Of a DNA stretch of 64,000 nucleotides, positions 42,021-63,155 are shown one piece after another. Numbering within the stretch: position 1 is the stretch's first letter; each line of letters opens with the position of its first letter. The notes under the pieces were generated by a model. The model saw only the letters and a list, made by a program, of their open reading frames with translations. It made no database searches and was not told where the DNA came from. Both the position numbers and the translations under genes were made by a program. Source of the DNA: Microbacterium murale (GTDB taxonomy: Bacteria > Actinomycetota > Actinomycetes > Actinomycetales > Microbacteriaceae); contig NZ_BMCM01000004.1 in assembly GCF_014635185.1 (NCBI RefSeq), forward strand, positions 124,001-188,000, given 5' to 3'.

Positions 42021-43406
42021 ATGGAGAGCCGTGAAGAAGTCGCTGAATTCCTGAAGTCCGAACTGGCGCACCGGGCAGCAGCCCGCGGAGTTCCGGCGGC
42101 CGCGGTCGCGGTCGTCATCGACGGCGAGATCGTCGATCACGCGGTCGGGGTTCTCAGTACCGCGACGGGTGTGGAGGCGACCACGGAATCGGTCTTCCAG
42201 ATCGGGTCGATCACCAAGGTGTGGACGGCGACGCTTGTCATGCAGCTCATCGATGAGGGGCTGGTCGAGCTGGACGAACCCATCCGCACCTACCTGCCGG
42301 AGTTCCGCCTCGGCGATGATTCGGCCACCGGATCCATCACGGTGCGCCAACTGCTCACCCACCAAGCCGGGTTCGAGGGCGACATCTTCACGGACACCGG
42401 ACGTGGCGACGATGCGATCGAGAAGTTCGTCGACCTGCTCGCCGAGATGCCGCAGACCTTCCCGCCCGGATTCATGTTCTCGTACAACAACGCCGGATAC
42501 ATCGTGCTCGGCCTCCTCGTCGAACGTCTGCGCGGGAAGACCTGGGAACAGGCCCTCGTGGCGCACATCGCTGCGCCGCTCGGCTTGCAGCGCGTATCGC
42601 CGAGTCCGTACGAGGCCATCCTGCATCGCGTGGCGGTGGGCCACATGGGACCGGGAGAGGATGGCGTCGCGACGCCTGCCCCGATGTGGGCGATGGCGCG
42701 CTCGAACGAGCCGGCCGGCTCGATGCTGGCGATGACAGCACGCGATCTCGCCGGATTCGCACGGATGCACCTCACGGGCGGCACAGCGCCGGACGGCACT
42801 GCCGTGCTCTCGTCGTCTGCGGTGGAGGCGATGCGGGCGACCACCGTCCACCTTCCGGTCATCACGGGCCTCGGCGCCGCATGGGGCCTTGGGTGGGAGA
42901 TCGACCGCGATGACGACGTGCGGCTGTACGGCCATGACGGCAACACGATCGGGCAGGCCTCCTACCTCCGCATCGCACAGGACGCCCGGGTGGCCGTCGT
43001 CCTGCTCACCAACGGCGGCGATGGCCCTGGACTTCTCCACGACATCGTCGATCCCCTTCTGCGCGAGCTCACCGGCGAGGGTCTGCCTGCGGCGCCCGTC
43101 CCGTCGGCGGACCCGCGTCCCGTGGATGCCACCGGGTATGTCGGCACGTACTCCAACTCGATCTTCGACATGGAACTGTCCCAAGACGACAGCGGCCGGG
43201 TCTGGCTCGAGCAGCGGCCCAAGGGTCTGCTGCTCGAGATGGGCGAGCAGCCGTCCCAGGATGAGCTGATCTCGTTCGGCGAGGACTCACTCATCATGCG
43301 CGAGGAGAAGAACGGCATGCACATCGTGTACACATTCGTCTCTCCGGATGCCGACGGACGACACGCCTACGTCCAATTCGGGCGCGCGCTCGCACGCACG
43401 TCCTGA
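42021..43406 (+). CDS. S12-family serine hydrolase (beta-lactamase fold, D-aminopeptidase-like)
   Basis: 461 residues with no signal peptide, so cytoplasmic. Catalytic motifs of the class C beta-lactamase/D-peptidase fold: Ser63-x-x-Lys66 (GSITK), Tyr155-Asn-Asn157, and His305-Asp-Gly307 (GHDGNT). The C-terminal 90 residues form a predicted beta-rich lipocalin-like domain starting YVGTYSNS. It is closely similar to the second half of the protein encoded at 48613, sharing for example GDxFTDTGRGDD. Members of this family cut peptides or amides with D-configured residues; here it heads a peptide-transport operon. True substrate unknown. Confidence 0.88.
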   Translation: MESREEVAEFLKSELAHRAAARGVPAAAVAVVIDGEIVDHAVGVLSTATGVEATTESVFQIGSITKVWTATLVMQLIDEGLVELDEPIRTYLPEFRLGDDSATGSITVRQLLTHQAGFEGDIFTDTGRGDDAIEKFVDLLAEMPQTFPPGFMFSYNNAGYIVLGLLVERLRGKTWEQALVAHIAAPLGLQRVSPSPYEAILHRVAVGHMGPGEDGVATPAPMWAMARSNEPAGSMLAMTARDLAGFARMHLTGGTAPDGTAVLSSSAVEAMRATTVHLPVITGLGAAWGLGWEIDRDDDVRLYGHDGNTIGQASYLRIAQDARVAVVLLTNGGDGPGLLHDIVDPLLRELTGEGLPAAPVPSADPRPVDATGYVGTYSNSIFDMELSQDDSGRVWLEQRPKGLLLEMGEQPSQDELISFGEDSLIMREEKNGMHIVYTFVSPDADGRHAYVQFGRALARTS

Positions 43407-43486
43407 CCACTGCAGCCCGCACCCGCACGACGCACCACACGCACCGCAGGCCAGACCGGAACATTCATCGCCCAGGAGGAAACGAA

Positions 43487-45073
43487 ATGACACGGAAACG
43501 CACTGTCGCAGCGGCCGTCACCGCCGTAAGCGCTCTCGCACTCGCCCTCGCCGGATGCTCGTCCGACGGCGGCGGGACGCCGACAGGAGAGCCGGTCGAA
43601 GGCGGCACCTTCACGCAGATCCTGAACGCGGACCCCGGCAACCTCGATCCGCAGATGTCCGCCGGCAGCGCGTTGTTCGACGTGTCCGTCTTCGCCTACG
43701 ACACCCTCGTCGCCGTCGACGCCGAAGGCAAGCCGCAGAGTCAACTGGCCTCGGACTGGACCCAGGACGGGTTGACCGCGACGCTGACGCTGAACGACGG
43801 GATCCTCTGCAGCGACGGCACCGAATTCACCGCGCAGACCGCGGCGGACAACCTCAACTGGATCTCGGATCCCGCGAACCAGAGCGCATTCCTCGGAGCG
43901 TTCTTCCCCGTGGGCGTCACCACCGTCGCAGAGGGGAACACCATCACGTTGACCCTCAGTGCGCCCGCCCCGTTCCTCCTGCTGGGTCTCGCCAATCTCC
44001 CCATGGTGTGCGATGCCGGTCTCGCCGACCGCTCCACGCTCGCGGCGGCATCCAACGGCACAGGGCCGTACGTCCTCACCGAGGCCGTGCCGAACGACCA
44101 CTACACGTTCGAGCTCCGCGAGGAGTACGCGTGGGGACCGGACGGCGCAACAGTCGACGAGACGGGCATCCCCGCGGTGGTGAACATCCGCATCGTCGCG
44201 GATGGGACGACCGCGACGAATCTCATGCTCTCCGGAGAGGGCAACGCCGCACAGCTCCTCGGTCCGGATGCGGAGCGCGCACTCGGAGCCGACCTGTTCG
44301 CCCTGGAGTCCAGCGCGGTCGTCGGCGAGCAGTGGTACAACCATGCCGAAGGCCATCCGACCAGTGATCCGGCGGTTCGCATGGCGCTGACGCAGGCCCT
44401 CGATCTCGACGAGTTGGCGAACGTCATCACCACGGGCAAGGGGGGACCTGCAAGCGCGCTCGCGACCGTGGATCCCAGAGGGTGCACCTTCGATTCGGTC
44501 TCCGACGTCCTTCCCGACTTCGACGTGGATGCCGCGAACGCAGCGCTGGATGCTGCCGGATGGAAGCTCGGCGCGGACGGCGTGCGGGTCAAGGACGGCA
44601 CTCCCCTGAGCATCGTCTTCCTCTACCAGAACGGTCTGGGCGCAGCGGGCACGGCGGCCGCGGAACTCGCGATCGCGGCGTGGGAGCAGATCGGTGTGGA
44701 TGTCGACGGCAGAGAGCAGGACGAGCCCTCCATCCTCGATGCGATCTTCAGCACCGGTGCGTGGGATGTCAGCTGGGTCCCGGTCAGCGTCAACAGCCCG
44801 GATCAGTTGATCGGCTTCCTCAGTGGGATCGTCCCGCCGGAGGGCGTCAACTTCTCCGGCATCCAGAACTCCGACTACGAGGCCGCCATCGCCGAGGCGA
44901 TGCAGCTGCCGGGAACGGAAGGCTGCCCGACGTGGCAGGAAGCCGAATCCGCACTCATCGAGGCCGCAGACATGGTGCCGTTCGCAGAAGGCACCGTCTA
45001 CATGTTCGGCAGCGGCGCGGAGTTCGAATGGACAGGTCAGATCGCACCGACGAGCATCCGCATGCTCGGCTGA
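43487..45073 (+). CDS. Peptide ABC transporter substrate-binding lipoprotein
   Basis: 528-residue SBP_bac_5 (DppA/OppA type) receptor. AGGAGG lies a few bases before ATG 43487. The signal peptide has lipobox LAGC, then a Gly-rich linker. The mature domain has the typical LNADPGNLDPQ opening and NxVxTGKGGPA-like region. It delivers peptides to the downstream permeases. An 80-bp spacer separates it from the S12 hydrolase. The family also binds nickel or sugars, but the surrounding peptidases favour peptides. Confidence 0.92.
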   Translation: MTRKRTVAAAVTAVSALALALAGCSSDGGGTPTGEPVEGGTFTQILNADPGNLDPQMSAGSALFDVSVFAYDTLVAVDAEGKPQSQLASDWTQDGLTATLTLNDGILCSDGTEFTAQTAADNLNWISDPANQSAFLGAFFPVGVTTVAEGNTITLTLSAPAPFLLLGLANLPMVCDAGLADRSTLAAASNGTGPYVLTEAVPNDHYTFELREEYAWGPDGATVDETGIPAVVNIRIVADGTTATNLMLSGEGNAAQLLGPDAERALGADLFALESSAVVGEQWYNHAEGHPTSDPAVRMALTQALDLDELANVITTGKGGPASALATVDPRGCTFDSVSDVLPDFDVDAANAALDAAGWKLGADGVRVKDGTPLSIVFLYQNGLGAAGTAAAELAIAAWEQIGVDVDGREQDEPSILDAIFSTGAWDVSWVPVSVNSPDQLIGFLSGIVPPEGVNFSGIQNSDYEAAIAEAMQLPGTEGCPTWQEAESALIEAADMVPFAEGTVYMFGSGAEFEWTGQIAPTSIRMLG

Positions 45074-45084
45074 GGCGAACAGAC

Positions 45085-46089
45085 GTGAGCACAGCCACCA
45101 CCGTGACCACCCTCGTGGCGGAGGACGCCACGCGCATCAGCGACAGCCGCTGGCCGCGTTTCATCCTCCGCCGCGGCGGGCGGCTGCTCGTCTCGCTCTG
45201 GGTGCTGGTCACGGCATCCTTCCTGATGATCCATCTCGTCCCCGGCGACCCGGTACGCGCAGCGCTGGGGCCGACCGCATCGGCGGCGATCGTGGACGCA
45301 CGTCGGGAATCGCTCGGCCTCAACGACCCGCTGTGGGAGCAGTACCTGCATTATCTGCAGGGCGTGCTGACCGGTGATCTGGGGGTGTCGATCGGGTCGC
45401 AGCTTCCGGTGGCCGACACGATCGCGCAGCGACTCCCCGCCACGGCCGCACTCGCCGTCCTCGCGTTCATCGTGGCGGTGCTCATCTCGATCCCGATCGG
45501 CGTCGCCGTCGCCATCGCGACCCAGCGCGGACGCGCACGGGGCCTCGAACTCGGCTTCAGCTCGACGAGCGTGCTGCTGGGGTCCATCCCGGAGTTCCTG
45601 CTCGGCGTCGCCCTCGTCGCCGTGTTCGGGGTGCAGCTCGGATGGCTGCCGGTCGCAGGACGGGAAGGTGCCGGCTCCTACATCCTTCCGGTGCTCGCCC
45701 TGGCTCTCGGGCCGGCCGCGGTGCTCGCACGCATCGTCCGGCTGGAGGTGCTCGCGGTGCTCGAGACCGACTTCGTCCGCACAGCGCAGTCCAAGCGGCT
45801 GCGCACCTGGAAGATCAACATCCGTCACGTGCTGCCCAACGCGCTCACCGCGACGCTCACACTGGGCGGACTGATCCTCAGCAGTCTCGTCGCCGGAACC
45901 GTGCTCGTCGAGACGGTGTTCGCGTGGCCAGGACTCGGCAGTACGATCGTCGGCTCGATCCAGACGAAGGACTACCCATTGGTGCAGGGCACAGTGCTCG
46001 TCTACGGCATCGGCGTGCTGCTGGTGAACACGATCGTCGACGCGGCACTCGCGATGCTCAACCCGCAATCTACGGTCGCGGAGGGATGA
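45085..46089 (+). CDS. Peptide ABC transporter permease (DppB type)
   Basis: 334 residues from GTG 45085. An unusually long cytoplasmic N-terminus of about 35 residues comes before helix 1 (LLVSLWVLVTASFLMIHLVPGDP, the family signature region). Six helices are predicted, with the ATPase-contact loop TAQSKRLRTWKINIRHVLPNAL. It overlaps the next gene by 4 nt (ATGA). It forms the translocation channel with the permease half of the next protein. Confidence 0.92.
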   Translation: MSTATTVTTLVAEDATRISDSRWPRFILRRGGRLLVSLWVLVTASFLMIHLVPGDPVRAALGPTASAAIVDARRESLGLNDPLWEQYLHYLQGVLTGDLGVSIGSQLPVADTIAQRLPATAALAVLAFIVAVLISIPIGVAVAIATQRGRARGLELGFSSTSVLLGSIPEFLLGVALVAVFGVQLGWLPVAGREGAGSYILPVLALALGPAAVLARIVRLEVLAVLETDFVRTAQSKRLRTWKINIRHVLPNALTATLTLGGLILSSLVAGTVLVETVFAWPGLGSTIVGSIQTKDYPLVQGTVLVYGIGVLLVNTIVDAALAMLNPQSTVAEG

Positions 46090-47834
46090 TGCGCGCTCTC
46101 CGCCTCATGCTGCGCAGCCCACTCGGCGCGACGGCGATCACGCTGTTCGCATTCGTGGTGCTCACCGCCGTCTTCGCTCCGCTGATCTGGGGTGTGCAGG
46201 CATCGGTCACCAACACCGGCGACCTGCTGGCCGGCCCCTCAGCCGAGCACCTGATCGGTACAGACAATCTGGGCCGAGACCTGCTGCTGCGCACGCTCGT
46301 CGCGACGCGGCTCTCGATCGTGCTGGCCGTGCTGGCCACAGCGGTGGCGGTCGGAGCGGGGCTCATCCTCGGCGTCGCGCCTCTGCTGCTCGGACGCCTG
46401 CTCGGTCGACCGGTCATCTGGTTCACCGGCATCGCCGTCGCCTTCCCCGGACTCCTGCTGGCGCTCTTCTTCGCCGCGATCTTCGGCAGCAGTTCGACCG
46501 CAGCAGTGTTCGCCATCGGCCTGGCCGGTGCACCGGCATTCGCACGCCTGTGCCAGAACCTCATCGCCGGCATCGAGGCGCGTGACTTCGTCGCCGCCGC
46601 ACGAGTCGGCGGCGTCGACAGGTTCCGCGTGCTGCTGCGGCACGTGCTCCCCAACATCGGCGAGCCTCTCATCGTGAACGCGACGATCGGGGCCGGTGGC
46701 GCACTGCTGGCGTTCGCGGGTCTGTCGTTCCTCGGTTTGGGAGTTCAGCCGCCCGAGTACGACTGGGGCCGGCTCATGATGGACGGAATACGCGGGATCT
46801 ACCTCAACCCGCTCGCCGCACTCGCGCCAGGTGCGGCCGTCGTGATCGCGGGTCTCGCCTTCAACCTCCTCGGCGAATCCGCGGCGCGCACGCTCGGGAT
46901 CTCCGATGACGCCATCCTCATCTCCCTTGCACGTCGACGCTCTTCGCGGCGGCTGCGCCCCGTCGCCGCGCCGACCGCTCCCACCCCCGCTGAGCACGAC
47001 GAGAACGTGCTCGAGGTGCAGGACCTGCGCGTGACCTTCCCCGGGGCCGCCGGCCCCGTCCACGCGGTGCGCGGAGTGTCGTTCTCGGTACGCGAGGGTG
47101 AGATCGTCGGCATCGTGGGAGCGTCCGGCTCCGGTAAGTCGATGACCGCGCTCGCCGTCGCACAGCTCGTCGCCGAGCCGGCTCTGGTCGAAGCATCCGT
47201 CCTGCGCTTCCTCGGCATCGACCTGCGGACCGCGCGCAAGGAGAAGCTGCGCCGCCTGCTCGGCACGTCGCTCGCGATGGTGTTCCAGGACCCGATGTCG
47301 TCTTTCAATCCCACGATGCGGATGGGCGATCAGCTAGCTGAGGTGGCCACGGAGCACGCGGGGCTCAGCCGACGTGAAGCACGTCGACTCGCCGCCGATC
47401 GTCTCGCCGCGGTGCGGATCAGCCAACCGGCACGGAGAGTGCGCCAGTACCCCTACGAGTTCTCCGGTGGAATGCGGCAGCGGGCGATGATCGGGATGGG
47501 GCTCATGATCTCGCCGCGTCTGATCATCGCCGACGAGCCGACCACCGCCCTCGATGTCACCGTTCAGAGTCAGGTTCTCGAGCTGCTGCGCGAGATCCGC
47601 GACAGCGACGGCGCGTCGATCCTGTTCATCAGCCACGACATCTCCGTGGTCGCGGAGCTCTGCGATCGCGTGCTCGTGATGAATGCGGGCGAGATCGTCG
47701 AAGAGCTTCGCGCATCCGAACTCTCCTCGGCGCGGCATCCGTACACCCGGGCGCTGCTCGCGGCCGTACCGCACATGGGCACCGATCTGGACCGCCCCCT
47801 GGCGGGCATCGAGGACGAGGTGACGACGCGATGA
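46086..47834 (+). CDS. Fused peptide ABC permease (DppC type) and ATPase (DppD type)
   Basis: 582-residue fusion. Residues 1-285 form a DppC-type permease with six helices and the contact loop GGVDRFRVLLRHVLPN. A linker rich in Arg/Pro/Ala follows, and residues about 305-582 are a full ATPase: Walker A GASGSGKSM, signature FSGGMRQRA, Walker B IIADEPTTALD. DppC and DppD are normally separate; joining them fixes permease-ATPase stoichiometry. The start ATG overlaps the dppB-type stop and the end overlaps the dppF-type start by 4 nt. There is no frameshift or internal stop, so the fusion is real in this sequence. Confidence 0.93.
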   Translation: MMRALRLMLRSPLGATAITLFAFVVLTAVFAPLIWGVQASVTNTGDLLAGPSAEHLIGTDNLGRDLLLRTLVATRLSIVLAVLATAVAVGAGLILGVAPLLLGRLLGRPVIWFTGIAVAFPGLLLALFFAAIFGSSSTAAVFAIGLAGAPAFARLCQNLIAGIEARDFVAAARVGGVDRFRVLLRHVLPNIGEPLIVNATIGAGGALLAFAGLSFLGLGVQPPEYDWGRLMMDGIRGIYLNPLAALAPGAAVVIAGLAFNLLGESAARTLGISDDAILISLARRRSSRRLRPVAAPTAPTPAEHDENVLEVQDLRVTFPGAAGPVHAVRGVSFSVREGEIVGIVGASGSGKSMTALAVAQLVAEPALVEASVLRFLGIDLRTARKEKLRRLLGTSLAMVFQDPMSSFNPTMRMGDQLAEVATEHAGLSRREARRLAADRLAAVRISQPARRVRQYPYEFSGGMRQRAMIGMGLMISPRLIIADEPTTALDVTVQSQVLELLREIRDSDGASILFISHDISVVAELCDRVLVMNAGEIVEELRASELSSARHPYTRALLAAVPHMGTDLDRPLAGIEDEVTTR

Positions 47835-48580
47835 GCGAACTCCGTTTCGAGAACGTGTCGGTGCGCTATGGTCACGGCCGGACCGCCATGACCGCAGTCG
47901 ACGATGTGTCGCTCACAGTGCCGGACGGCGAGGTGCTCGGCGTCGTCGGCGAATCGGGTTCGGGCAAGTCGACTCTCGCACGCGCTGCCGTCGGCCTGGT
48001 TCCGCTGCACTCGGGCAGGATCCTCGTCGACGGTGAGCCGGTCCCCCGGCGCGGCCAGCGCCCGCTGCAGATGGTCTTCCAGGATCCGTATTCCTCGCTC
48101 GACCCGCGGATGACGATAGGTGCGAGCATCGCCGAGATCATGCCCTCGGGGATGACGCGGCGAGCGCGTGCAGCCGAGGTCGCGCGGCTGCTCGAACTCG
48201 TCCACCTCGACCCCGACAAGGCGGATGTCTTCCCCGCCCGGTTCTCCGGCGGGCAGCGCCAGCGCGTCGCGATCGCACGGGCGCTCGCGGGCAAACCGCG
48301 GGTGCTCATCGCCGACGAGATCACCTCGGCGCTGGACGTGCTGATCCAGGGCACGATACTCAACCTCATCCGCGAACTGCAGGCCGAGCTCGGCCTCTCA
48401 TTGCTGTTCATCTCGCACAACCTCGCCGTCGTGCGCTATGTCGCCTCCCGCGTCGCGGTGATGCACGACGGACGCGTCGTCGAAGAGGGCGCATCCGCCG
48501 ACGTGCTCGGCGACCCGCAGGATCCGTACACCCGCGAACTTCTGGCCGCGATCCCCCGTCCTATCCGATTCACCCCGTGA
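47831..48580 (+). CDS. Peptide ABC transporter ATPase (DppF type)
   Basis: 249-residue second ATPase of the peptide importer: Walker A GESGSGKST, signature FSGGQRQRV, Walker B VLIADEITSALD. It is shorter at the C-terminus than usual DppF and stops soon after the oligopeptide-transporter motif DPYTRELLAAIP, lacking the Cys-rich iron-sulfur tail. It overlaps the fusion gene by 4 nt and is followed 32 bp later by the fused peptidase. Confidence 0.92.
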   Translation: MSELRFENVSVRYGHGRTAMTAVDDVSLTVPDGEVLGVVGESGSGKSTLARAAVGLVPLHSGRILVDGEPVPRRGQRPLQMVFQDPYSSLDPRMTIGASIAEIMPSGMTRRARAAEVARLLELVHLDPDKADVFPARFSGGQRQRVAIARALAGKPRVLIADEITSALDVLIQGTILNLIRELQAELGLSLLFISHNLAVVRYVASRVAVMHDGRVVEEGASADVLGDPQDPYTRELLAAIPRPIRFTP

Positions 48581-48612
48581 TGAAGATCCACCCCGCAACG
48601 AAGGAGCACAGC

Positions 48613-51600
48613 GTGACCCGCAGAATGCGCATCGACGACGTCCTCGCTCTCACCGTCCCGAGCCAGCCCGCCCTCTCCCCCGACGGCGCGCGGCTGGCGT
48701 ATGTCCTCGGAGGCGTCGACGTCGACGCGGATCGGGCGACGAGCGCGATCTGGCTCGCCGAGGACGGCGCCACCCGCGCCCTCACGCACGGCACGAGCGA
48801 CGCCGCCCCGGTGTTCTCCCCCGGTGGCGACGAACTCGCCTTCCTCCGCGACGGACAGCTGTGGACGCTGCCGCTCGCCGGCGGAGAGCCGCGGCAGCGA
48901 ACCCGCATCCCGCTCGGCGCCGGCACCGCTGTCTGGAGTCCTGATGGCACGAAGATCGCCTTCGCGGCGCCGGTCGCCAGGGAATCCGGGGAGACCGAGA
49001 CCGATGAGCAGCGCGCGGCGCGCGAAGGCGCGCCCATCGTCACGGACGCCATCGACTACCTGATCGACGGCGCGTGGCTCGTGCGCGGAGTGCGCCAGCA
49101 GCTGCACGTGCTCGATCTCGCGGACGATCGCGTCCGACCGCTCACCGACGGCGACGTGCATGTCGGAAGCCCGGCATGGTCGCCGGATGGCAGGACGCTC
49201 GCCTACACGGCACGTCCGTCCGGAGCGACCGATCTGGAGGCCCGCTCCGCGGTGCACGCCATCGATCCGGCCGATCCGGCCGCCGCACCGCGCGTACTCG
49301 CGTTCACCGATGGGTACGCGGCGACGGTGTCGTACACGCCGGACGGCGCGTCGCTGATCATCGTCGGCTGGAGTGGCGAGCCGGTCGGGCACGCCGGTCT
49401 GTTCACCGTGGAGTTCGCATCCGGAAAGACGACGGATCTCGCAGCATCCCTCGACCGCAACGTGATGCCGGGGGCTCCGGCATACCCTGGCGCCCTGCCG
49501 CAGATCACCGAGTCCGGCGACATCCTCTTCGCCGTCCGCGACCGCGGCGCGACGCATCTGTATGCGGTCCCGCCGACCGGGGGCGACCCCCGCCATGTGT
49601 TCGGGGGCACCGACGAGGTCGTCAGCGGCCTCTCGGTCGCGGGTGGCGCCGTCGCCGTCGCGCTTGCGACGCCGACGTCTTTCGGCGAGATCGTGCGCGT
49701 GGATCCTTCGACCGGGAAGGGCGACGTCATCACGTCGCACGGCTCCGCGCCGGAGGGCGTCGACCTGTTCGTGCGGGAGAGTCGCGAGTTCACCATCAGC
49801 GACGGCACCACGGTGCAGGGCTGGATCGTGCGCGACCCTTCGGTGAGCGGACCGACGCCGCTCCTGGTGGATGTGCACGGAGGCCCGCACAACGCCTGGA
49901 ACGGCGCGATGGACGAGATGCACGTCTTCCATCAGGAGCTCGCCGCCAAGGGCTGGACGATCGTCATGATCAACCCGCGGGGCAGCGACGGCTACGGCGA
50001 GGCGTTCTGGAAGGGCGTGAACGAGGCCTGGGGCGTCGCCGACGCGAAGGACTTCCTCGAGCCCATCGGCGAGCTCGTCGCCGACGGCACCGCCGATCCC
50101 AAGCGGCTGGCCATCACCGGCTACAGCTACGGCGGCTTCATGACCGCCTACCTCACCGCTCACGACGACCGCTTCGCCGCGGCAGCAGCGGGCGGCATCG
50201 TCTCCGACCTCGTGAGCATGGGCGGCTCCAGCGACGACGCGCACCTGCTCAACGTCTACGAGATCGGCAGGATGCCGTGGAGTTCGGCCGACCGCGAGAG
50301 CCTCGCGGCGATGTCGCCCTACACCGCCGTGGAGAATGTCACCACGCCGACGCTCGTGCTCCACGGCGAGAAGGACCTGCGCTGCCCCCTCGGTCAGGCG
50401 CAGCAGTGGTACGCGGCACTGCGCGAACGCGATGTGCCGACGCGCCTGGTCGTGTATCCGGGCGGCAGCCACATCTTCCCGCTGATGGGCGTGCCCAGCC
50501 ACCGCGTCGACTACGCGCGGCGCGTCGTCGAATGGGTGCAGCAGTACGCTGGCAGCGCCGAAGGACCACGTCCTGCGCGCATCGACGCCGCGCACTGGCA
50601 GCGCCGCCTCGACGCCCTCAGCGCCCTGCACGGCGTCCCGGGTGCGCAGCTCGGCATCCTGCGATTCGACCCCGAGGGCGAAGACGACGTCGTCACCCTC
50701 GCGACGGGAACCCTCAACCAGAACCTGCCGTCCGCGTCCGCGAAGACGCTGCCGGATTCCCTCTTCCAGATCGGATCGATCTCGAAGGTCTGGACCGCGA
50801 CAGTGGTCATGCGTCTCATCGAAGACGGACACTTCACTCTCGACACGCTCGCGAAGGACATCATCTCCGGCCTGCGCCTCGCGAACGACGAGCTGACTGC
50901 CGGCATCACCGTGCGGCATCTGCTCACGCACACCAGCGGTCTCGACGGCGACGTGTTCACCGACACCGGGCGGGGCGACGACTGCCTCGAGAAGTACGTC
51001 GGTCTGCTCGCGGAGGTCGGCCAGAACCATCCCCTCGGCGCCACTTGGTCGTACTGCAATGCCGGCTTCTCGCTGCTCGGGCGCATCATCGAGCAGGCCA
51101 CGGGCAAGACCTGGGATGCGGCCATGCGCGATCTGCTGTTCACCCCGCTCGGGCTCACGCACACCGTGACGCTGCCGGAGGAGGCGATCCTGCATTCCGC
51201 AGCCGTAGGTCACGTGGATGCCGGTGACGAGCAGATCCTCGCGCCGGTGTGGAGCCTGCCGCGCTCGCTGGGTCCCGCCGGTCTCATCGCCGCACGCGCA
51301 CAGGATGTGCTGGGCTTCGCCAGGCTGCACCTCGCCGGTGGCGTCGCCGGCGATGGCGTGCGCCTGCTCGACGCCGAGGCGGTGGCCGACATGCAGGCCT
51401 TCCACGCCGAGGTGCCGGACAAGCACGTGCTCGGCGATTCATGGGGGCTCGGCTGGATCCGGTTCGACTGGAACGGCGAACGCCTGTACGGCCACGACGG
51501 CAACACGATCGGACAGGCCGCGTTCCTGCGCGTGCACCCGGAGTCGGGAGTCGCGGTCACGCTGCTGACGAACGGGGGCCACACCCGCGACCTCTACGGC

Positions 51601-51972
51601 GACCTCTACCGGGAGATCTTCGCAGAGCTGTCGGGGGTTCGGATGCAGGAGCCCGTCCAGCCACCGGCAGAACCCGTCGACGTCGACATCACCCCGTACA
51701 TCGGCACCTATGAGCGCGCCTCGGTGCGCACCGAAGTGTACGTCGGTGATGACGGCGACCCGATGATGCGCACGACCGTCCTTGGGCCGCTGGCCGAACT
51801 CGAGCCCGATCCGGTGGACGAGTACACCCTGACCGCTCTCAGTGAGAACGAGTTCGCGCTGCGCCAGCCGGGCACGCAGACGTGGGTCACGGTGACCTTC
51901 TACGCGCTGCCCACCGGTGAGGAGTACGTGCACTTCGGCGCCAGGGCGACCCCGAAGGTGGCGGCCGGCTGA
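48613..51972 (+). CDS. Bifunctional peptidase: S9 prolyl oligopeptidase fused to S12 beta-lactamase-fold hydrolase
   Basis: 1119-residue two-enzyme protein. I chose GTG 48613 because GAAGGAG lies 6 nt upstream. Residues 1-380 resemble a beta-propeller with PDG repeats, and residues 380-660 an S9 alpha/beta hydrolase with Ser505 (GYSYGG), Asp588 and His620 (GGSHIF), as in acylaminoacyl-peptidase/DPP-type enzymes. Residues about 670-1119 are a complete S12 hydrolase with Ser722-x-x-Lys725, Tyr814-Cys-Asn816 and His961-Asp-Gly963, then a lipocalin-like C-terminus. The S12 half is a paralogue of the protein at 42021. No signal peptide, so cytoplasmic. It sits between the peptide transporter and the M20 gene (1-nt overlap). 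I know of no standard family with this fusion. Confidence 0.9.
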   Translation: MTRRMRIDDVLALTVPSQPALSPDGARLAYVLGGVDVDADRATSAIWLAEDGATRALTHGTSDAAPVFSPGGDELAFLRDGQLWTLPLAGGEPRQRTRIPLGAGTAVWSPDGTKIAFAAPVARESGETETDEQRAAREGAPIVTDAIDYLIDGAWLVRGVRQQLHVLDLADDRVRPLTDGDVHVGSPAWSPDGRTLAYTARPSGATDLEARSAVHAIDPADPAAAPRVLAFTDGYAATVSYTPDGASLIIVGWSGEPVGHAGLFTVEFASGKTTDLAASLDRNVMPGAPAYPGALPQITESGDILFAVRDRGATHLYAVPPTGGDPRHVFGGTDEVVSGLSVAGGAVAVALATPTSFGEIVRVDPSTGKGDVITSHGSAPEGVDLFVRESREFTISDGTTVQGWIVRDPSVSGPTPLLVDVHGGPHNAWNGAMDEMHVFHQELAAKGWTIVMINPRGSDGYGEAFWKGVNEAWGVADAKDFLEPIGELVADGTADPKRLAITGYSYGGFMTAYLTAHDDRFAAAAAGGIVSDLVSMGGSSDDAHLLNVYEIGRMPWSSADRESLAAMSPYTAVENVTTPTLVLHGEKDLRCPLGQAQQWYAALRERDVPTRLVVYPGGSHIFPLMGVPSHRVDYARRVVEWVQQYAGSAEGPRPARIDAAHWQRRLDALSALHGVPGAQLGILRFDPEGEDDVVTLATGTLNQNLPSASAKTLPDSLFQIGSISKVWTATVVMRLIEDGHFTLDTLAKDIISGLRLANDELTAGITVRHLLTHTSGLDGDVFTDTGRGDDCLEKYVGLLAEVGQNHPLGATWSYCNAGFSLLGRIIEQATGKTWDAAMRDLLFTPLGLTHTVTLPEEAILHSAAVGHVDAGDEQILAPVWSLPRSLGPAGLIAARAQDVLGFARLHLAGGVAGDGVRLLDAEAVADMQAFHAEVPDKHVLGDSWGLGWIRFDWNGERLYGHDGNTIGQAAFLRVHPESGVAVTLLTNGGHTRDLYGDLYREIFAELSGVRMQEPVQPPAEPVDVDITPYIGTYERASVRTEVYVGDDGDPMMRTTVLGPLAELEPDPVDEYTLTALSENEFALRQPGTQTWVTVTFYALPTGEEYVHFGARATPKVAAG

Positions 51973-53114
51973 TGAGCACACCGTCCACTGTGCGCGACAG
52001 CGCGGTCACCCAGGCCGCGATCATCGACACGATCCGCCGTCTCGTCGAGTGCGAGTCGCCGTCCGGTGACCACGCCGCCGTCGCGCGCTCGGCCGACCTG
52101 GTCGCCGAGCTCGGCACGCGGCTGCTGGGCGCGGCCCCGGAGCGCATCGAGGTCGACGGTGTCGTGCATGTGCGGTGGAGGTTCGGTGCATCGACGCGGG
52201 TGCTTCTGCTCGCGCACCACGACACCGTCTGGCCGATCGGCACGCTCCGGCGGCTGCCCTACGATGTGCGCGCCGGCGTGCTCACCGGCCCCGGCAGCTT
52301 CGACATGAAGACCGGACTCGCCATGGCGCTGCACGCTGTCGCGGGCCTGGACGATCGCGACGGCGTCACCATCCTGGTCACCGGGGATGAGGAGCTGGGT
52401 TCGCCCCGATCGCGCGCTCTCATCGAGGAGACCGCGCGCGGTGCGAGTGCCGCCCTCGTCCTGGAGGCGTCAGCGGACGGTGGCGCTCTCAAGACCGAAC
52501 GCAAGGGTGTCTCGCTGTACGAGATGGTCGTCTCGGGGCGTGCCGCACATGCAGGGCTCGAGCCGGAGAAGGGCGTGAACGCCAGTGTGGAGCTCGCGCA
52601 TGTCACCATCACGGCTGCCGCTCTGACCGATGCCGCCGCCGGAACGAGCGTCACGCCGACCGTGGCCTCATCCGGTACGACGACGAACACGGTCCCCGCC
52701 GCCGCGCGGCTGTGGATCGACGTCAGGGCGCGCACCGCGGATGAACTCGAACGCGTGGACGTCGCACTCCGCGGGTACGTGTGCGTCACACCCGGCGCAT
52801 CGATCGAGGTGCGTGGCGGCGTCAACCGCCCGCCGCTGGAGCCTGGGATGTCGGCGGGGGTGTTCGCACTCGCGGCACGGCTCGCAGATCGTCTGGGCCA
52901 CGAACCGTTGACGCACGTCGCCGTGGGCGGCGCGAGCGATGGCAACTTCACCGCGGGAATGGGCGTGCCGACCCTGGACGGACTCGGCGCGGTCGGCGGC
53001 GGCGCCCATGCCGATGACGAGCACGTCCTCGTGGACGAGATCGTTCCGCGCACACGCCTTCTGACCGAACTGGTCGCCGCGATATCGAGAACGGAAGAGC
53101 CATGGCACAACTGA
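51972..53114 (+). CDS. M20-family metallohydrolase (N-acyl-amino-acid deacylase / carboxypeptidase G2-like)
   Basis: 380 residues in the M20A layout. Zinc ligands: His82 and Asp84 in AHHDTV, bridging Asp111 in GSFDMKTG, catalytic Glu140 with zinc ligand Glu141 in GDEELGS, and a C-terminal GGGAHADDE histidine. The dimerisation domain (residues 175-285) has the substrate His in GRAAHAGLEPEKG. In this setting it is the best candidate for an N-succinyl- (or N-acyl-) L-amino acid hydrolase acting after the racemase. Alternative: a carboxypeptidase of the G2 type. Confidence 0.88.
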   Translation: MSTPSTVRDSAVTQAAIIDTIRRLVECESPSGDHAAVARSADLVAELGTRLLGAAPERIEVDGVVHVRWRFGASTRVLLLAHHDTVWPIGTLRRLPYDVRAGVLTGPGSFDMKTGLAMALHAVAGLDDRDGVTILVTGDEELGSPRSRALIEETARGASAALVLEASADGGALKTERKGVSLYEMVVSGRAAHAGLEPEKGVNASVELAHVTITAAALTDAAAGTSVTPTVASSGTTTNTVPAAARLWIDVRARTADELERVDVALRGYVCVTPGASIEVRGGVNRPPLEPGMSAGVFALAARLADRLGHEPLTHVAVGGASDGNFTAGMGVPTLDGLGAVGGGAHADDEHVLVDEIVPRTRLLTELVAAISRTEEPWHN

Positions 53115-53905
53115 CGCGAGACGATGCGGTGGCAGCGGCAGCGGTCCTGGACGCCGAACGGGCAGCATCCCATGCGGGTGTGAGCCTGCGCGAGCTGACC
53201 GGTATGGGCGAGCAGGCGGAGTCGATCCGACTCCTCTCCGAGATCTGGAAGCGTTCGCCGGAGAACCCGCCAGTGCCGCCCGAGCTGCTTCGGGCGATGA
53301 GCAAAGCCGGCAACTACATCGCAGGCGCCTTCATCGAGGACGAACTCATCGGCCTGGCCATCGCCTTCCACGCCGACCCCGATCGACACGCACTGCACAG
53401 CCACATCGCCGGCATCTCGCCCGCACACGCGGGCCGTTCGGTCGGCTTCGCGCTGAAACAGCATCAGCGGGCGTGGGCCCTCTCCCGCGGCATCGATACG
53501 ATCGAGTGGACCTTCGATCCGCTCGTCGCACGCAACGCGTACTTCAACCTCAGCAAGCTCGGTGCAGAGCCGGCGGAGTACCTCGCGAACTTCTACGGTG
53601 AGATCGCCGACGGCATCAACACCGACGATGAGACGGACAGGCTGCTGGTGAGCTGGCGGCTGCGCAGCGAGGTAGCCGTCGCCTGCGCCGCGGGTGCCTC
53701 TGCGGTCGCCGTGCGGGAGCCGGGAGACGTCTGGGTCGCGGTGCCGACCGACATCGAGCAGATCAGACGCGAGGACATGGCCGCCGCGCAGCAGTGGCGA
53801 CACCGCGTGCGGGATCAACTGACGGAACTGCTGGATGCCGGTGGCCGCATCATCGGATTCGATCGCGCCGAGGGCTACCTCGTGCGCCCGGGAAGGGACT
53901 CATGA
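53102..53905 (+). CDS. GNAT-superfamily N-acyltransferase (COG3375 type)
   Basis: 267-residue putative acetyl/succinyltransferase. A GNAT-like core is visible in residues 45-165 (AGAFIEDELIGLAIAF, then a helix start AGRSVGFALKQHQRAWALSRG resembling the acyl-CoA-binding segment). It is followed by a C-terminal domain of about 100 residues. COG3375 proteins are repeatedly encoded next to N-succinylamino acid racemases and are proposed to succinylate D-amino acids. It overlaps the M20 gene by 13 nt and the racemase gene by 4 nt, so the three are tightly coupled. Confidence 0.82.
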   Translation: MAQLTRDDAVAAAAVLDAERAASHAGVSLRELTGMGEQAESIRLLSEIWKRSPENPPVPPELLRAMSKAGNYIAGAFIEDELIGLAIAFHADPDRHALHSHIAGISPAHAGRSVGFALKQHQRAWALSRGIDTIEWTFDPLVARNAYFNLSKLGAEPAEYLANFYGEIADGINTDDETDRLLVSWRLRSEVAVACAAGASAVAVREPGDVWVAVPTDIEQIRREDMAAAQQWRHRVRDQLTELLDAGGRIIGFDRAEGYLVRPGRDS

Positions 53906-55011
53906 TGAGACTCGAAGGACTGGAGCTGCGTCGGGTGGCGATGCCGCTCGTCTCGCCGTTTCGCACGTCGTTCGGAACGCAGACCGCGAAGGACATCCTG
54001 CTGATCAGGGCCGTCACAGCGGACGGCGAGGGGTGGGGCGAATGCGTCACCCTTCCCGACCCGGTCTACTCCCCCGAGTACACCGAAGGCGCCGTCGACG
54101 TCATCCGGCGCTTCATCGCACCCGCTCTGGCCGGCGCGCGACTCAGCGGAGCGCACATGATCGGCGAGACGCTTGCGAAGTTCAAGGGGCACCGCATGGC
54201 CAAGGCCGCGGTCGAGATGGCGGTGCTCGATGCCGAGCTTCGTGCACAGGGCCGCTCGTTCGCCCGTGAACTGGGTGCGGTGCACGACACCGTGCCGTGC
54301 GGGGTGTCTGTGGGCATCATGGATGAGATCCCCCGGCTGCTCGATGCCGTCGACGAGTACCTCGACGAGGGCTATGTGCGCATCAAGTTGAAGATCGAGC
54401 CCGGCTGGGACATCGACGTCGTGCGCGCGGTGCGCGAACGCATCGGCGATGGCGTGCAGCTGCAGGTGGATGCGAACACGGCGTACACGCTCCGCGATGC
54501 GCAGCACCTCGCACGGCTCGACGAATTCGGGCTGCTGCTGATCGAACAGCCGCTGGAGGAGGAGGACATCCTCGGGCACGCCGAACTCGCCCGAATCCTC
54601 AGCACCCCCATCTGCCTGGACGAGTCGATCACGTCGGCGCAGACGACCGCCGCGGCGATCGGCCTCGGAGCGACCAGCATCGTGAACATCAAACCGGGCA
54701 GGGTCGGCGGATATCTCGAGGCCCGCCGCATCCACGACGTCGCGATGGCGCACGGGGTGCCGGTGTGGTGCGGCGGGATGGTGGAGTCGGGGATCGGTCG
54801 CGCAGCCAACATCGCCCTGGCTGCGCTGCCCGGTTTCACGCTTCCGGGAGATGTGTCCGCCAGCGATCGCTTCTACCGCACCGACATCACCGAGCCGTTC
54901 GTGATGAAGGACGGCCACCTGGCCGTGCCGCAGGGCCCCGGCCTCGGTGTCACGCCGATTCCGGAGGTGCTCGACGAGCTCACGACCTGGACCCAGTGGG
55001 TGCCGATGTGA
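53902..55011 (+). CDS. N-succinylamino acid racemase / o-succinylbenzoate synthase-like enolase
   Basis: 369-residue muconate-lactonising subgroup enzyme. Catalytic lysines Lys162-x-Lys164 (IKLKIEPG) and Lys264 (NIKPGRVGG) and metal ligands Asp190, Glu215 and Asp240 are all present. GMVESGIGR is typical of the OSBS/NSAR family. Sequence alone cannot separate o-succinylbenzoate synthase (menC, menaquinone pathway) from racemase. The adjacent GNAT and M20 genes and the absence of men genes favour N-succinylamino acid racemase. ATG 53902 or ATG 53905 could be the start; GGAAGGGA precedes both. Confidence 0.88.
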   Translation: MMRLEGLELRRVAMPLVSPFRTSFGTQTAKDILLIRAVTADGEGWGECVTLPDPVYSPEYTEGAVDVIRRFIAPALAGARLSGAHMIGETLAKFKGHRMAKAAVEMAVLDAELRAQGRSFARELGAVHDTVPCGVSVGIMDEIPRLLDAVDEYLDEGYVRIKLKIEPGWDIDVVRAVRERIGDGVQLQVDANTAYTLRDAQHLARLDEFGLLLIEQPLEEEDILGHAELARILSTPICLDESITSAQTTAAAIGLGATSIVNIKPGRVGGYLEARRIHDVAMAHGVPVWCGGMVESGIGRAANIALAALPGFTLPGDVSASDRFYRTDITEPFVMKDGHLAVPQGPGLGVTPIPEVLDELTTWTQWVPM

Positions 55012-55014
55012 GGT

Positions 55015-55020
55015 TATGCT
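55015..55020 (+). promoter_or_regulatory. -10 box of a leaderless promoter for the PucR regulator
   Basis: TATGCT followed by 7 nt and ATG 55028, starting 3 nt after the racemase stop codon. Confidence 0.6.
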
Positions 55021-55027
55021 CACGGTT

Positions 55028-56650
55028 ATGAGCTCGCTGACCCGGTCGAGCTGGGGCCGCGTCTACGACGACCTCGGTGTGACTCTCCTCGACGTCGCGC
55101 ATGGCGCGATCGACGTGGATCAGCAGGTCGGCGGCGTCGTGATCCACGACCCGATCGACGAACCGGTCTATCCGCCGGATGCGATCGTCCTCGCGGTCGG
55201 AGTCCAGGACCCTGGTGCCCTGGCGTCACTGATGTCGGATGCCGGTGGGCGCGGCGCCGTCGCCGTGGTGGTGCGCGCGTCGATCGAACTTCCGGACGCC
55301 GTCCTCGGCGAAGCGGACGACGCCGGTGTCGCGATCCTCAGTCTTGCGCGTGGAGCGACCTGGACGCAGTTGGCTGCCCTTCTGCGCTCCGTGCTCTCGG
55401 AGGACGACATCGGGCGCACGCCGTCCGAGTCGCTCGGCGGTGTCTCGGCCGGCGACCTTTTCGCCGTCGCGAATGCGATCGCCGCCCTCTTGGGCGCTCC
55501 CGTCACGATCGAGGACCGCTCGTCGCGCGTGCTCGCGTTCTCCGGCGGACAGGAGTCTGCCGACGAGTCGCGGGTCGAGACGATCATCGGCCGCCAGGTG
55601 CCTGATCGATATGCGCGCGTACTCACCGAGATGGGCGTGTTCCGAGATCTGTATCGCGACGACGTCCCCGTCGTGATCGACCCGATGGATCTCGGTCAGG
55701 GTGTGACGACGCAGCGCATCGCCATCGCGGTGCGCGCCGGCGATGAGGTGCTGGGCTCGATCTGGGCGGCGATGGACGGGCCGCTCACACCCGAGCGCAC
55801 GTCGACGCTGCGGGATGCCGCGAAACTCGTCGCGCTGCATCTGCTGCGGGTGCGTGCAGGAGCGGATGCCGAGCGTCGGCTGCGGGCAGAGCTCGTGAGC
55901 AGGGCGGTCGACGGCGGTGCAGAGGCGCGTGACGCGCTGAGCCGCCTCGGCCTGGCGGGTCAGCGCGTCTGCGTCGCCGCAGCCGCACTCGCCAGGGGCC
56001 CGGGAGGCGAGACCCGAAGCGATCAAGACCTCATCGCCGACCGCGAGCGCCTCACCGATGCCCTTGCTCTGCATCTTTCCGCCGTGCAGCGCGGTGCGGC
56101 GGTGGCGCTCGTCGGAGACACCGTCTACGGCATCCTTCCCGTCGCCGACGTGTCGGCCGAGGAGCGCTCGGCACGCCTCGCCGAGGATTTCCTGCAGCGC
56201 GTCGGTTCTCGACTGCCGGCGCTGATCGGGATCGGTCAGCCGGCGGAGTCGGTCGCCGACATCGCCCGCTCGCGCACGCAGGCGCGACGGGTGCTGCGTG
56301 TTCTCGCGGAACGGCCGGGCCACCGCACGATCGCCCGTCTCTCCGAGGTCGAGACGGAATCGCTCCTGCTGGAGCTGCGTGACATGCGCGCGTCTCGCGG
56401 CGACGTCATCTCGGGGACGCTCGAACGCCTTGTCGAGTACGACGCACGCAATGACGCGCATCTGATCGAGACGCTCTCGGCCTGGCTGGACAGCTTCGGC
56501 GAGGTGAAGACCGCCGCAGCGGCGTGCTTCGTGCACCCGAACACGTTCCGCTATCGGCTGCGCCGCGCCGTGGAGGTCAGCGGCATCGACCTCGACGACC
56601 CGGAGGCGCGCTTCGCGACCATGCTCGAACTGCGCACGCTTCCGCACTGA
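55028..56650 (+). CDS. PucR/CdaR-family transcriptional regulator
   Basis: 540 residues. An N-terminal ligand-sensing region (about 1-140, purine catabolism PucR-like) and a GAF-like middle section (ALLGAPVTIEDRSSRVLAFSG) precede a GGDEF-like/CdaR segment and the C-terminal helix-turn-helix with FVHPNTFRYRLRR. Such regulators commonly activate nitrogen-source or amino-acid catabolic operons from an adjacent gene. It has its own TATGCT leaderless promoter and lies at the end of the D-amino acid island, so it is the probable local regulator (inference). Confidence 0.87.
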   Translation: MSSLTRSSWGRVYDDLGVTLLDVAHGAIDVDQQVGGVVIHDPIDEPVYPPDAIVLAVGVQDPGALASLMSDAGGRGAVAVVVRASIELPDAVLGEADDAGVAILSLARGATWTQLAALLRSVLSEDDIGRTPSESLGGVSAGDLFAVANAIAALLGAPVTIEDRSSRVLAFSGGQESADESRVETIIGRQVPDRYARVLTEMGVFRDLYRDDVPVVIDPMDLGQGVTTQRIAIAVRAGDEVLGSIWAAMDGPLTPERTSTLRDAAKLVALHLLRVRAGADAERRLRAELVSRAVDGGAEARDALSRLGLAGQRVCVAAAALARGPGGETRSDQDLIADRERLTDALALHLSAVQRGAAVALVGDTVYGILPVADVSAEERSARLAEDFLQRVGSRLPALIGIGQPAESVADIARSRTQARRVLRVLAERPGHRTIARLSEVETESLLLELRDMRASRGDVISGTLERLVEYDARNDAHLIETLSAWLDSFGEVKTAAAACFVHPNTFRYRLRRAVEVSGIDLDDPEARFATMLELRTLPH

Positions 56651-59070: not shown

Positions 59071-60189
59071 TTACTTGTACGACTCCACGATCTCCAGGAG
59101 GCTCGGCACGTTGGCGTATGCCTCGGCAGCGTTCTCCTTCGTGACGATGACCGGGTCGAGCAGGTACGACGGGACGACCTTCGAGCCGTTGTCATAGGAC
59201 TCGGTGTCGTTGACCTCGGCCTCTTCGCCCTTCTGCAGCTGTCCGACCATCTTGATGGCCTGCTCCACGAGCAGCGTGGTGTCCTTGTTGATCGTGGAGT
59301 ACTGGATGCCCTCCATGATCGACTTCACGGACTCGACCTCGGAGTCCTGACCGGTGACGACCGGCACGCCCTTACCGGCCTGCTGTGCAGAGGTGAGGAT
59401 GGCGCGTGCCAGGGTGTCGTTCGGCGACAGCACGCCGTCGAGCACCACGTCGCCGCCGTACGAGCCGGTGAGCAGCGTGTCCATGCGGTTCTGCGCGTTC
59501 TCCGCGAGCCAGCCCTCGGTGGCGGTCTGAGCGATCTCGGTCTGACCCGAGACGACGTTCAGCGTGCCGTCATCGATCGCCGGCTGCAGGACCTCCATCG
59601 CGCCGTCGAAGAAGACGGCCGAGTTGGCGTCGTCCGGCGAGCCGGAGAACAGCTCGACGTTGTACGGCGCCTCGTGACCGGCGCGCTCTGCGAGCCCGTC
59701 GAGCAGGGCCTGGCCCTGGAGGTTGCCGACCTTGAAGTTGTCGAACGCGACGTAGTAGTCGAGCGCATCGGTGTTCTCGATGAGGCGGTCGTACGCGATC
59801 ACGTAGGCGCCGGCATCCTTGGCCGCCTGTACCTGCGTGGCCAGCTGCTTGCCGTCCTTCGCGCCGATGATGATGACCTTGGCGCCGTTGGTGACCATCG
59901 ACGTGATCTGGTTCTGCTGCTCGGCGACGGTGTTGCTGGCCGGCGCGTACTGCACGTCGGCCTTGTAGCCGGCCTCTTCCAGTCCGTCGGTGAACAGCTG
60001 ACCGGCCAGCACCCAGTTCTCACTGGTCTTGTCCGGCAGCGCGACGCCGATCGTCGAGCCTGCGTCGAATCCGGTGACTTCCTCGTCGGTACCGCCGCCG
60101 GTGTCGCCGCCACGGTCGGATGAGCAACCGGTGAGGGCGAGAGCTGTTGCGGCGACAAGCGCTGTGGCCGCAAATGCCATTCTCTTCAT
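59071..60189 (-). CDS. chvE: Multiple-monosaccharide-binding lipoprotein (ChvE type)
   Basis: 372-residue periplasmic-binding-protein-like receptor (type 1 fold) with a signal peptide and lipobox LTGC followed by a Gly/Asp linker. Motifs such as IGVALPDKTSENWVLAG, AYDRLIENTDALDYYV and VTGQDSEVESVKSI are the ChvE/XylF pattern for aldose pyranoses (xylose, galactose, glucose, arabinose). It is cotranscribed with gguB and gguA but is the last gene here, 30 bp after the permease. AAAGAG precedes the ATG. Confidence 0.92.
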   Translation of the reverse strand: MKRMAFAATALVAATALALTGCSSDRGGDTGGGTDEEVTGFDAGSTIGVALPDKTSENWVLAGQLFTDGLEEAGYKADVQYAPASNTVAEQQNQITSMVTNGAKVIIIGAKDGKQLATQVQAAKDAGAYVIAYDRLIENTDALDYYVAFDNFKVGNLQGQALLDGLAERAGHEAPYNVELFSGSPDDANSAVFFDGAMEVLQPAIDDGTLNVVSGQTEIAQTATEGWLAENAQNRMDTLLTGSYGGDVVLDGVLSPNDTLARAILTSAQQAGKGVPVVTGQDSEVESVKSIMEGIQYSTINKDTTLLVEQAIKMVGQLQKGEEAEVNDTESYDNGSKVVPSYLLDPVIVTKENAAEAYANVPSLLEIVESYK

Positions 60190-60219
60190 GCGATCTCTTT
60201 CTCTGTTTCTTGGTGTGGA

Positions 60220-63107: not shown

Positions 63108-63139
63108 GGATCTTCCTCGATACTTGACGGTCATTCTCA

Positions 63140-63155
63140 ATGTGACCGTTCACAT
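63140..63155. promoter_or_regulatory. LacI-type operator upstream of the monosaccharide transporter
   Basis: ATGTGACCGTTCACAT is a 16-bp palindrome with one mismatched pair and a central CG, the classical LacI/GalR operator form. It lies 33 bp before the gguA GTG, within the likely promoter. The adjacent LacI-family gene (63240 onward) is the natural candidate repressor. Confidence 0.7.

Follow-up and report, generated by a model that had tools for sequence, protein, structure and literature searches.

What a bacterium gains by joining a peptide importer, two proteins with S12 hydrolase domains and an amino acid racemase in one operon is the question raised by a locus of Microbacterium murale. 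The locus lies at 42021-56650 of the 64,000-nucleotide stretch analyzed here (NZ_BMCM01000004.1, positions 124,001 to 188,000; hereafter the window), where the list of open reading frames (ORFs) and Pfam place ten genes, all on the plus strand: an S12 serine hydrolase (S12a), an ATP-binding cassette (ABC) importer of the peptide/nickel class, an S9-S12 double hydrolase (the fusion), an M20 metallo-amidohydrolase, a GNAT acyltransferase, an enolase-superfamily racemase of the N-succinylamino acid racemase (NSAR) type and a PucR-type regulator. We consider it likely that this is a salvage operon for D-amino-acid-containing peptides, acting via import, cytoplasmic cleavage and N-succinyl D-to-L conversion. 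An earlier reading made from the DNA letters alone (the sequence-only reading) had named the same plus-strand block and gene families; all ten ORFs were found, with Pfam in agreement. The strongest sign that the genes act jointly is that the set is kept while its order changes.

Recurrence, rearrangement and spread of the gene set

A scan of species genomes with an alignment built from fusion and S12a proteins returned at least 539 confirmed stretches, from which the best 80 loci were kept; these are the best-scoring loci and no random draw, with L078 and L109, at least, sharing one strain. (L021, from G066, another Microbacterium genome, and L046, NZ_SSDJ01000040.1 of Microbacterium sp. K24, are one and the same DNA.) The 80 loci span Microbacteriaceae, Nocardioidaceae, Kribbellaceae, Pseudonocardiaceae, Streptomycetaceae, Thermomonosporaceae, Micromonosporaceae and other families, and S9 and S12 matches are both present in every one. 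Before any extension of the flanks, a full importer was found in 65/80, GNAT and NSAR in 55/80, the importer together with that pair in 46/80 and all twelve query pieces in 27/80, while two loci held GNAT without NSAR. With six loci extended upstream the counts became 65 for the importer, 61 for NSAR, 63 for GNAT, 58 for M20, 61 for PucR and 52 for NSAR with importer, and among the 63 loci with near-full flanks the importer occurs in 56, NSAR in 52 and both in 47. The GNAT, NSAR and M20 genes, which are adjacent in the window, occur together in 53 of the 80. Chance recurrence of the gene set is excluded, the pattern lying far beyond it, and the co-occurrence search of actinobacterial genomes proposed in the sequence-only reading returned the gene types together among these best 80 loci.

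An apparent loss of NSAR from Amycolatopsis-type loci was rejected: in each of the six that were extended it proved to be an effect of the flank, with NSAR, GNAT, PucR and an amidohydrolase gene lying just past the earlier flank in all six, and M20 in five. Genomes were also searched for 14 of the 25 loci initially lacking NSAR, and 12 of them hold an NSAR somewhere at E 1e-60; for L097, L054, L067 and L108 it sits on a different contig, beside GNAT, and the L108 genome has a second NSAR copy with no GNAT match nearby. In Arthrobacter, L112:17161-21000 carries a second, inverted S9/S12, GNAT and NSAR set, the first set having GNAT and no NSAR of its own. One candidate triple fusion, S9-S12-M20 at L022:7110-11633, was rejected; its S12 tail reads out of frame and enters M20 without a stop, and it therefore represents a frameshift or assembly error.

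Gene order is far less constant, with 32 order strings among the 80 loci, although some of these differ only through contig ends. Twenty further stretches, 19 from Microbacterium and one from outside the genus, were chosen to include divergent and partial matches; four (L155, L156, L157 and L173) repeat loci among the 80, leaving 16 new ones. NSAR is present, whole or in part, in 12 of these (in L169 just 70 of its residues fall within the stretch) and absent from L161 and L163, both of which have GNAT, and from L168 and L171. The two peptidase domains also occur singly: L172 has an S9 without S12, adjoining GNAT and NSAR, and L169 and L170 have an S12 without S9, together with importer, amidohydrolase and M20.

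The spread of the operon is patchy. At E 1e-200 the fusion turns up in 56/367 Microbacterium genomes (over most of its length in 50), and it occurs in 2/149 genomes of a draw across the phylum, that of M. murale included. Moreover, a quick racemase tree, with branch support from the SH-aLRT (Shimodaira-Hasegawa-like approximate likelihood ratio test) only and several forks open, places the Microbacterium cluster copies in three positions. In a plasmid collection the fusion occurs on 12 records, two of which were examined: L178:1807-17508 (NZ_CP045548.1) holds the operon complete, on a linear Streptomyces plasmid of 508 kb where the racemase is annotated menC, and the other runs from a PucR-type gene to the fusion, with no NSAR in the stretch shown. 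Taken together, the patchy spread, the racemase tree and the plasmid copies suggest that the operon probably moves between species.

GNAT relatives are commoner, occurring in 88/99 Microbacterium genomes. Of 20 neighborhoods fetched, eight hold the operon, nine pair GNAT with an NSAR-like gene but lack any match to M20 or a peptidase, and in three GNAT stands alone; GNAT-NSAR pairs therefore also have another life, apart from the operon. The nine pairs (L028, L029 and L031-L037, at about 2-13 kb in each) have their own company, with a glycyl-tRNA synthetase-like protein, identified by eye, close by in three of the four read further.

Importer, hydrolases and the putative N-succinyl enzymes

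The genes are tightly packed, and the overlap from dppB to the racemase claimed in the sequence-only reading is seen at every junction, at 1 to 13 bases: four at dppB/dppCD, dppCD/dppF and dppF/S9-S12, one at S9-S12/M20, 13 at M20/GNAT and four at GNAT/NSAR, the last if the earlier of the two candidate NSAR start codons is used. Gaps of 11 bases between the binding-protein gene and dppB and of four bases between the racemase gene and pucR are similarly short. The operon is bordered upstream by a divergent CAAX-protease-like gene and downstream by a convergent ABC-ATPase gene; farther downstream, 59071-63140 of the minus strand encodes an ABC transporter of another type (Peripla_BP_4, BPD_transp_2 and a double ATPase).

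By Pfam family the importer is a complete Dpp/Opp-type set of one lipoprotein of substrate-binding protein family 5, two permeases and two ATPases. It comprises the substrate-binding lipoprotein (43487-45073; PF00496, SBP_bac_5, 1.3e-45), a DppB-type permease (45085-46089, from a GTG start picked by eye; PF00528, BPD_transp_1, 1.8e-31, and PF19300), a DppC permease-DppD ATPase fusion with PF00528 and PF00005 (ABC_tran) in a single ORF (46086-47834) and a DppF-type ATPase (47831-48580; PF00005, 1.3e-31). The N-terminus of the binding protein, LALAGCSS, is of lipoprotein type by eye, and it is predicted to bind peptides; its best NCBIfam model is nickel-binding NikA, below cut-off. At the far end of the operon, the PucR-type regulator (55016-56650; HTH_30, 2.2e-20) scores 127 bits against the AdeR model, under that model's cut-off of 700.

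The fusion (48577-51972, 1131 aa) combines a Peptidase_S9 domain (PF00326, 1.6e-44) with a Beta-lactamase-family S12 domain (PF00144, 2.7e-51). Seven residues that we take to be catalytic, Ser517, Asp600 and His632 in the S9 part and Ser734, Lys737, Tyr826 and His973 in the S12 part, are identical in all 73 aligned rows (the window plus 72 of the 80 loci, eight having been dropped for stops in the span). The S12 residues (SxxK, Tyr and HxG) are likewise present in S12a (42021-43406, 461 aa; PF00144, 2e-66), a paralogue of the fusion's S12 domain. Among solved chains, S12a is nearest to IS11 (1.6e-60), 6ksu (SurE, 6.4e-47) and the R61 DD-peptidase (3.3e-29), followed by ClbP (3e-24) and alkaline D-peptidase (4.6e-24), with esterases and beta-lactamases ranked lower. 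The Gly235 of SurE was dropped as a marker of a D-pocket because an equivalent glycine, judged by eye, seems general in the S12 family.

No N-terminal signal peptide was seen in S12a, the fusion, M20, GNAT or NSAR by a simple hydropathy scan, no dedicated predictor being used; the lipoprotein signal scores 2.02 on this scale, and the fusion has a borderline peak of 1.71 at residue 348, inside its S9 part. Since S12a and the fusion begin with no such signal, peptide cleavage is probably cytoplasmic.

The M20 protein (51972-53114; PF01546, Peptidase_M20, 1.7e-25) is carboxypeptidase G2-like, a profile of nine orthologues matching 1cg2 at 8.8e-49 as the top of 27 solved chains. The GNAT protein (53102-53905) matches PF00583 (Acetyltransf_1) at 6e-06, which bears out the GNAT half of the COG3375 GNAT label given in the sequence-only reading, and phmmer gave no match among PDB chains at E 1 or below. 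The racemase (53902-55011; MR_MLE_C, 3.5e-55) shares 73.2% identity with 1sja (phmmer, 1.9e-179), a solved Amycolatopsis racemase that we take to be the enzyme of strain T-1-60, and its sequence places it in the NSAR/OSBS (o-succinylbenzoate synthase) family of the enolase superfamily, with racemase activity predicted. It has Lys161, Lys163, Lys263, Asp189, Glu214, Asp239 and Arg266 (1sja numbering), which we take to include the catalytic lysine pair and three magnesium ligands, with Arg266 presumably the NSAR determinant. Five of the seven are kept in 88/88 rows, and Lys263 and Arg266 in 87/88; the exception is an NSAR-like gene of Arthrobacter sp. 35W (L119:15321-16430) that has lost Lys263, Arg266 and Gly291. 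Elsewhere in the window, the minus strand encodes a further enolase-superfamily protein at 20593-21276; the genome has ten MR_MLE_C matches in all, this one among them.

Additional partner genes accompany the set at other loci. The amidohydrolase adjoins the M20/GNAT/NSAR genes in all six extended loci, and the one tested (L145:4084-5592) is nearest, among solved chains, to N-acyl-D-glutamate deacylase (7.9e-25) and D-aminoacylase (1.3e-21). At L109:13461-16582, a DAO-family oxidase and a D-aminoacylase-like amidohydrolase stand behind the fusion, with no NSAR nearby, in a strain that also holds the NSAR-bearing locus L078. Class-A-like genes, recognized by similarity to two proteins of L084 that belong to PF13354, occur in 20/80 loci. 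As family resemblances, these extra partners point to D-residue amides.

The natural setting of the Amycolatopsis racemase can be approached through the same loci. Among the cluster enzymes, that of A. dendrobii (L141, from the same genome and contig as L074) is 97.3% identical to 1sja and that of Streptomyces antnestii (L113) 89.1% identical, and 1sja groups among the cluster enzymes in the quick tree. On the strength of the A. dendrobii match, this operon is probably the natural setting of 1sja. Work by Sakai (2006) and Glasner (2006), and later studies of Arg266, may reportedly already give the Amycolatopsis enzymes an NSAR role. A review names OSBS as the biological role of the Amycolatopsis NSAR/OSBS (PMC4215206).

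A salvage route and its rivals

Read in the order suggested by the enzyme families, the lipoprotein and DppBCDF would bring a peptide in, the S9 site would take off L-residue pieces in the cytoplasm, and the S12 sites would cleave bonds at D-residues, yielding free D-amino acids. GNAT would then attach a succinyl group to the D-amino acid, the NSAR enolase would racemize the N-succinyl amino acid and M20 would strip the succinyl from the L-form, making the route one-way to L-amino acids, with PucR conceivably sensing substrate or product. Import, cleavage and D-to-L conversion had all been put forward in the sequence-only reading, which is partly supported: in its favor are the linkage of importer, S9-S12 and GNAT-NSAR-M20, a probable cytoplasmic site, an enolase that is not needed as OSBS and resembles a solved racemase, and D-aminoacylase-like partners in sister loci. 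The acyl group and the stereochemistry of GNAT and M20 we infer by analogy with the Geobacillus route, and the D-specificity of the S12 domains, the natural substrate, the cytoplasmic site and the PucR signal likewise stay at the level of prediction. The system itself is real and recurs, its parts are known, and it is probably catabolic. For the fuller picture, in which a horizontally moved, patchy actinobacterial operon eats D-residue peptides by the N-succinyl route, with Amycolatopsis NSAR/OSBS as its racemase instead of a menaquinone enzyme and the S9-S12 fusion as a peptidase whose two heads deal with chains of mixed L- and D-residues, the chances seem about even.

Several observations weigh against salvage. 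The S12 family is mixed and includes esterases and beta-lactamases, with no D-specific residue signature established for the S12 domains; the hydropathy peak of S12a (1.62 at residue 27) is borderline; the family of the binding protein leaves its ligand unfixed; the nearest relative of M20 is carboxypeptidase G2; and the operon enolase scores over the cut-off of an NCBIfam model for o-succinylbenzoate synthase (TIGR01928). Furthermore, 11 of the 63 well-flanked loci have no NSAR close by; two of the 61 loci counted as having one, L112 and L119, have it solely in an inverted set (and, in L119, as the copy that has lost catalytic residues); and the L093 and L104 genomes, two of the 14 searched, have no NSAR at E 1e-60. 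GNAT-NSAR pairs, moreover, also occur apart from the operon. The DAO-family protein of L109 falls under every NCBIfam cut-off, with glycine oxidase at the top.

The TIGR01928 score, together with the menC label on the plasmid copy, would suit an enolase that is simply the cell's OSBS, lying beside a peptide operon by accident. This is scarcely credible, given its stable linkage to GNAT, M20 and the importer and the presence of dedicated enzymes elsewhere. The sequence-only reading had named an OSBS enolase in a genome otherwise short of men genes as fatal to its proposal, and this condition fails: the M. murale genome encodes a MenC of its own, scoring 467 bits, together with a MenD that passes its cut-off, and MenC is over cut-off in 15 of 16 other fusion-bearing genomes (14 of the 16 are Amycolatopsis, and three of the 15 matches contain one internal stop codon). 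With a dedicated MenC in these genomes the operon enolase is not needed as OSBS there, and a menaquinone role for it was rejected. In the sixteenth genome, that of Streptomyces antnestii (G110), no match to MenC or MenD passes the cut-off; two strong matches to PF02621, presumably a family of the futalosine route, are present there and absent from genomes G000 and G101. An OSBS role in G110 is therefore very unlikely, unless the draft genome misses genes.

The remaining rivals concern the substrate and the direction of the route. Peptidoglycan-peptide recycling, in which the imported peptides come from stems or cross-bridges, where D-residues abound in this family, would find its substrate in D-Ala and D-Glu and the further D-residues of B-type walls, and S12a counts the R61 DD-peptidase among its closest solved relatives. 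It is nonetheless unlikely, since none of the ten operon genes matches an LD-carboxypeptidase, NlpC/P60, amidase or muropeptide ligase family in Pfam, and the presence in only some Microbacterium genomes and in two of the phylum draw better suits an optional catabolic trait. Less probable again is a system that detoxifies or exploits peptide antibiotics or beta-lactams, with the S12 and class-A-like proteins as drug hydrolases; class C beta-lactamases belong to S12, many hosts of the operon make antibiotics and class-A-like genes are added in a quarter of the 80 loci, but the two class-A-like proteins of L084 show by eye neither a signal peptide nor a Glu166-type motif, and the resistance operons known to us contain neither an importer nor D-to-L conversion of amino acids. 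Finally, the racemase is reversible and the enantiomer preferences of GNAT and M20 are predictions, so the route could conceivably be run backward, making D-amino acids from L-peptides. We regard this as very improbable, because the importer and peptidases look catabolic, sister loci have a D-aminoacylase-like partner and the described Geobacillus pathway runs from D to L.

If salvage is the true function, a natural role would be found for a model enzyme of promiscuity evolution, the Amycolatopsis NSAR/OSBS, whose purpose is debated and would become directly testable by genetics. The menC annotation of the racemase gene would be corrected as well, and an enzyme set for degrading mixed L/D peptides would be on offer.

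Comparison with known systems

The closest parallel to the second half of the route is a D-to-L amino acid pathway of GNAT, NSAR and M20 enzymes in Geobacillus kaustophilus, reportedly described by Sakai (2006). The same three enzyme families are encoded there by adjacent genes, as in the operon, M20 and GNAT resembling the Geobacillus enzymes at the level of family. To our knowledge, neither an importer, an S9-S12 fusion nor S12 enzymes accompany the Geobacillus pathway. A further paper has the Geobacillus NSAR used with an L-succinylase (PMC7431475). As for the racemase itself, 1sja, known as an N-acylamino acid racemase or NSAR/OSBS, is closer to the A. dendrobii cluster enzyme than to that of the window.

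SurE, a penicillin-binding-protein-type thioesterase, and the R61 DD-peptidase are sequence relatives of S12a; SurE is a cyclase, and R61 is a secreted enzyme. SurE requires a C-terminal D-residue (PMC11735501).

The sequence-only reading had taken the combination of import with two S12 modules to be new, and the operon is described in none of the listed titles and abstract openings of openly licensed papers. The dppABCDE-ykfABCD operon of Bacillus subtilis, a murein-peptide operon, is similar in uniting a peptide importer, a D-aminopeptidase and an enolase-superfamily epimerase. Its peptidases, however, are of other families, and the substrate of its epimerase is the dipeptide L-Ala-D/L-Glu instead of N-succinyl amino acids; the window enolase fails the L-Ala-D/L-Glu epimerase models (NF011708, 51.5 bits against a cut-off of 343; NF041118, 79.3 against 500). 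The import and epimerization of D-residue peptides are thus already known from Bacillus, and it is the particular set of enzymes in the M. murale operon that appears to be new.

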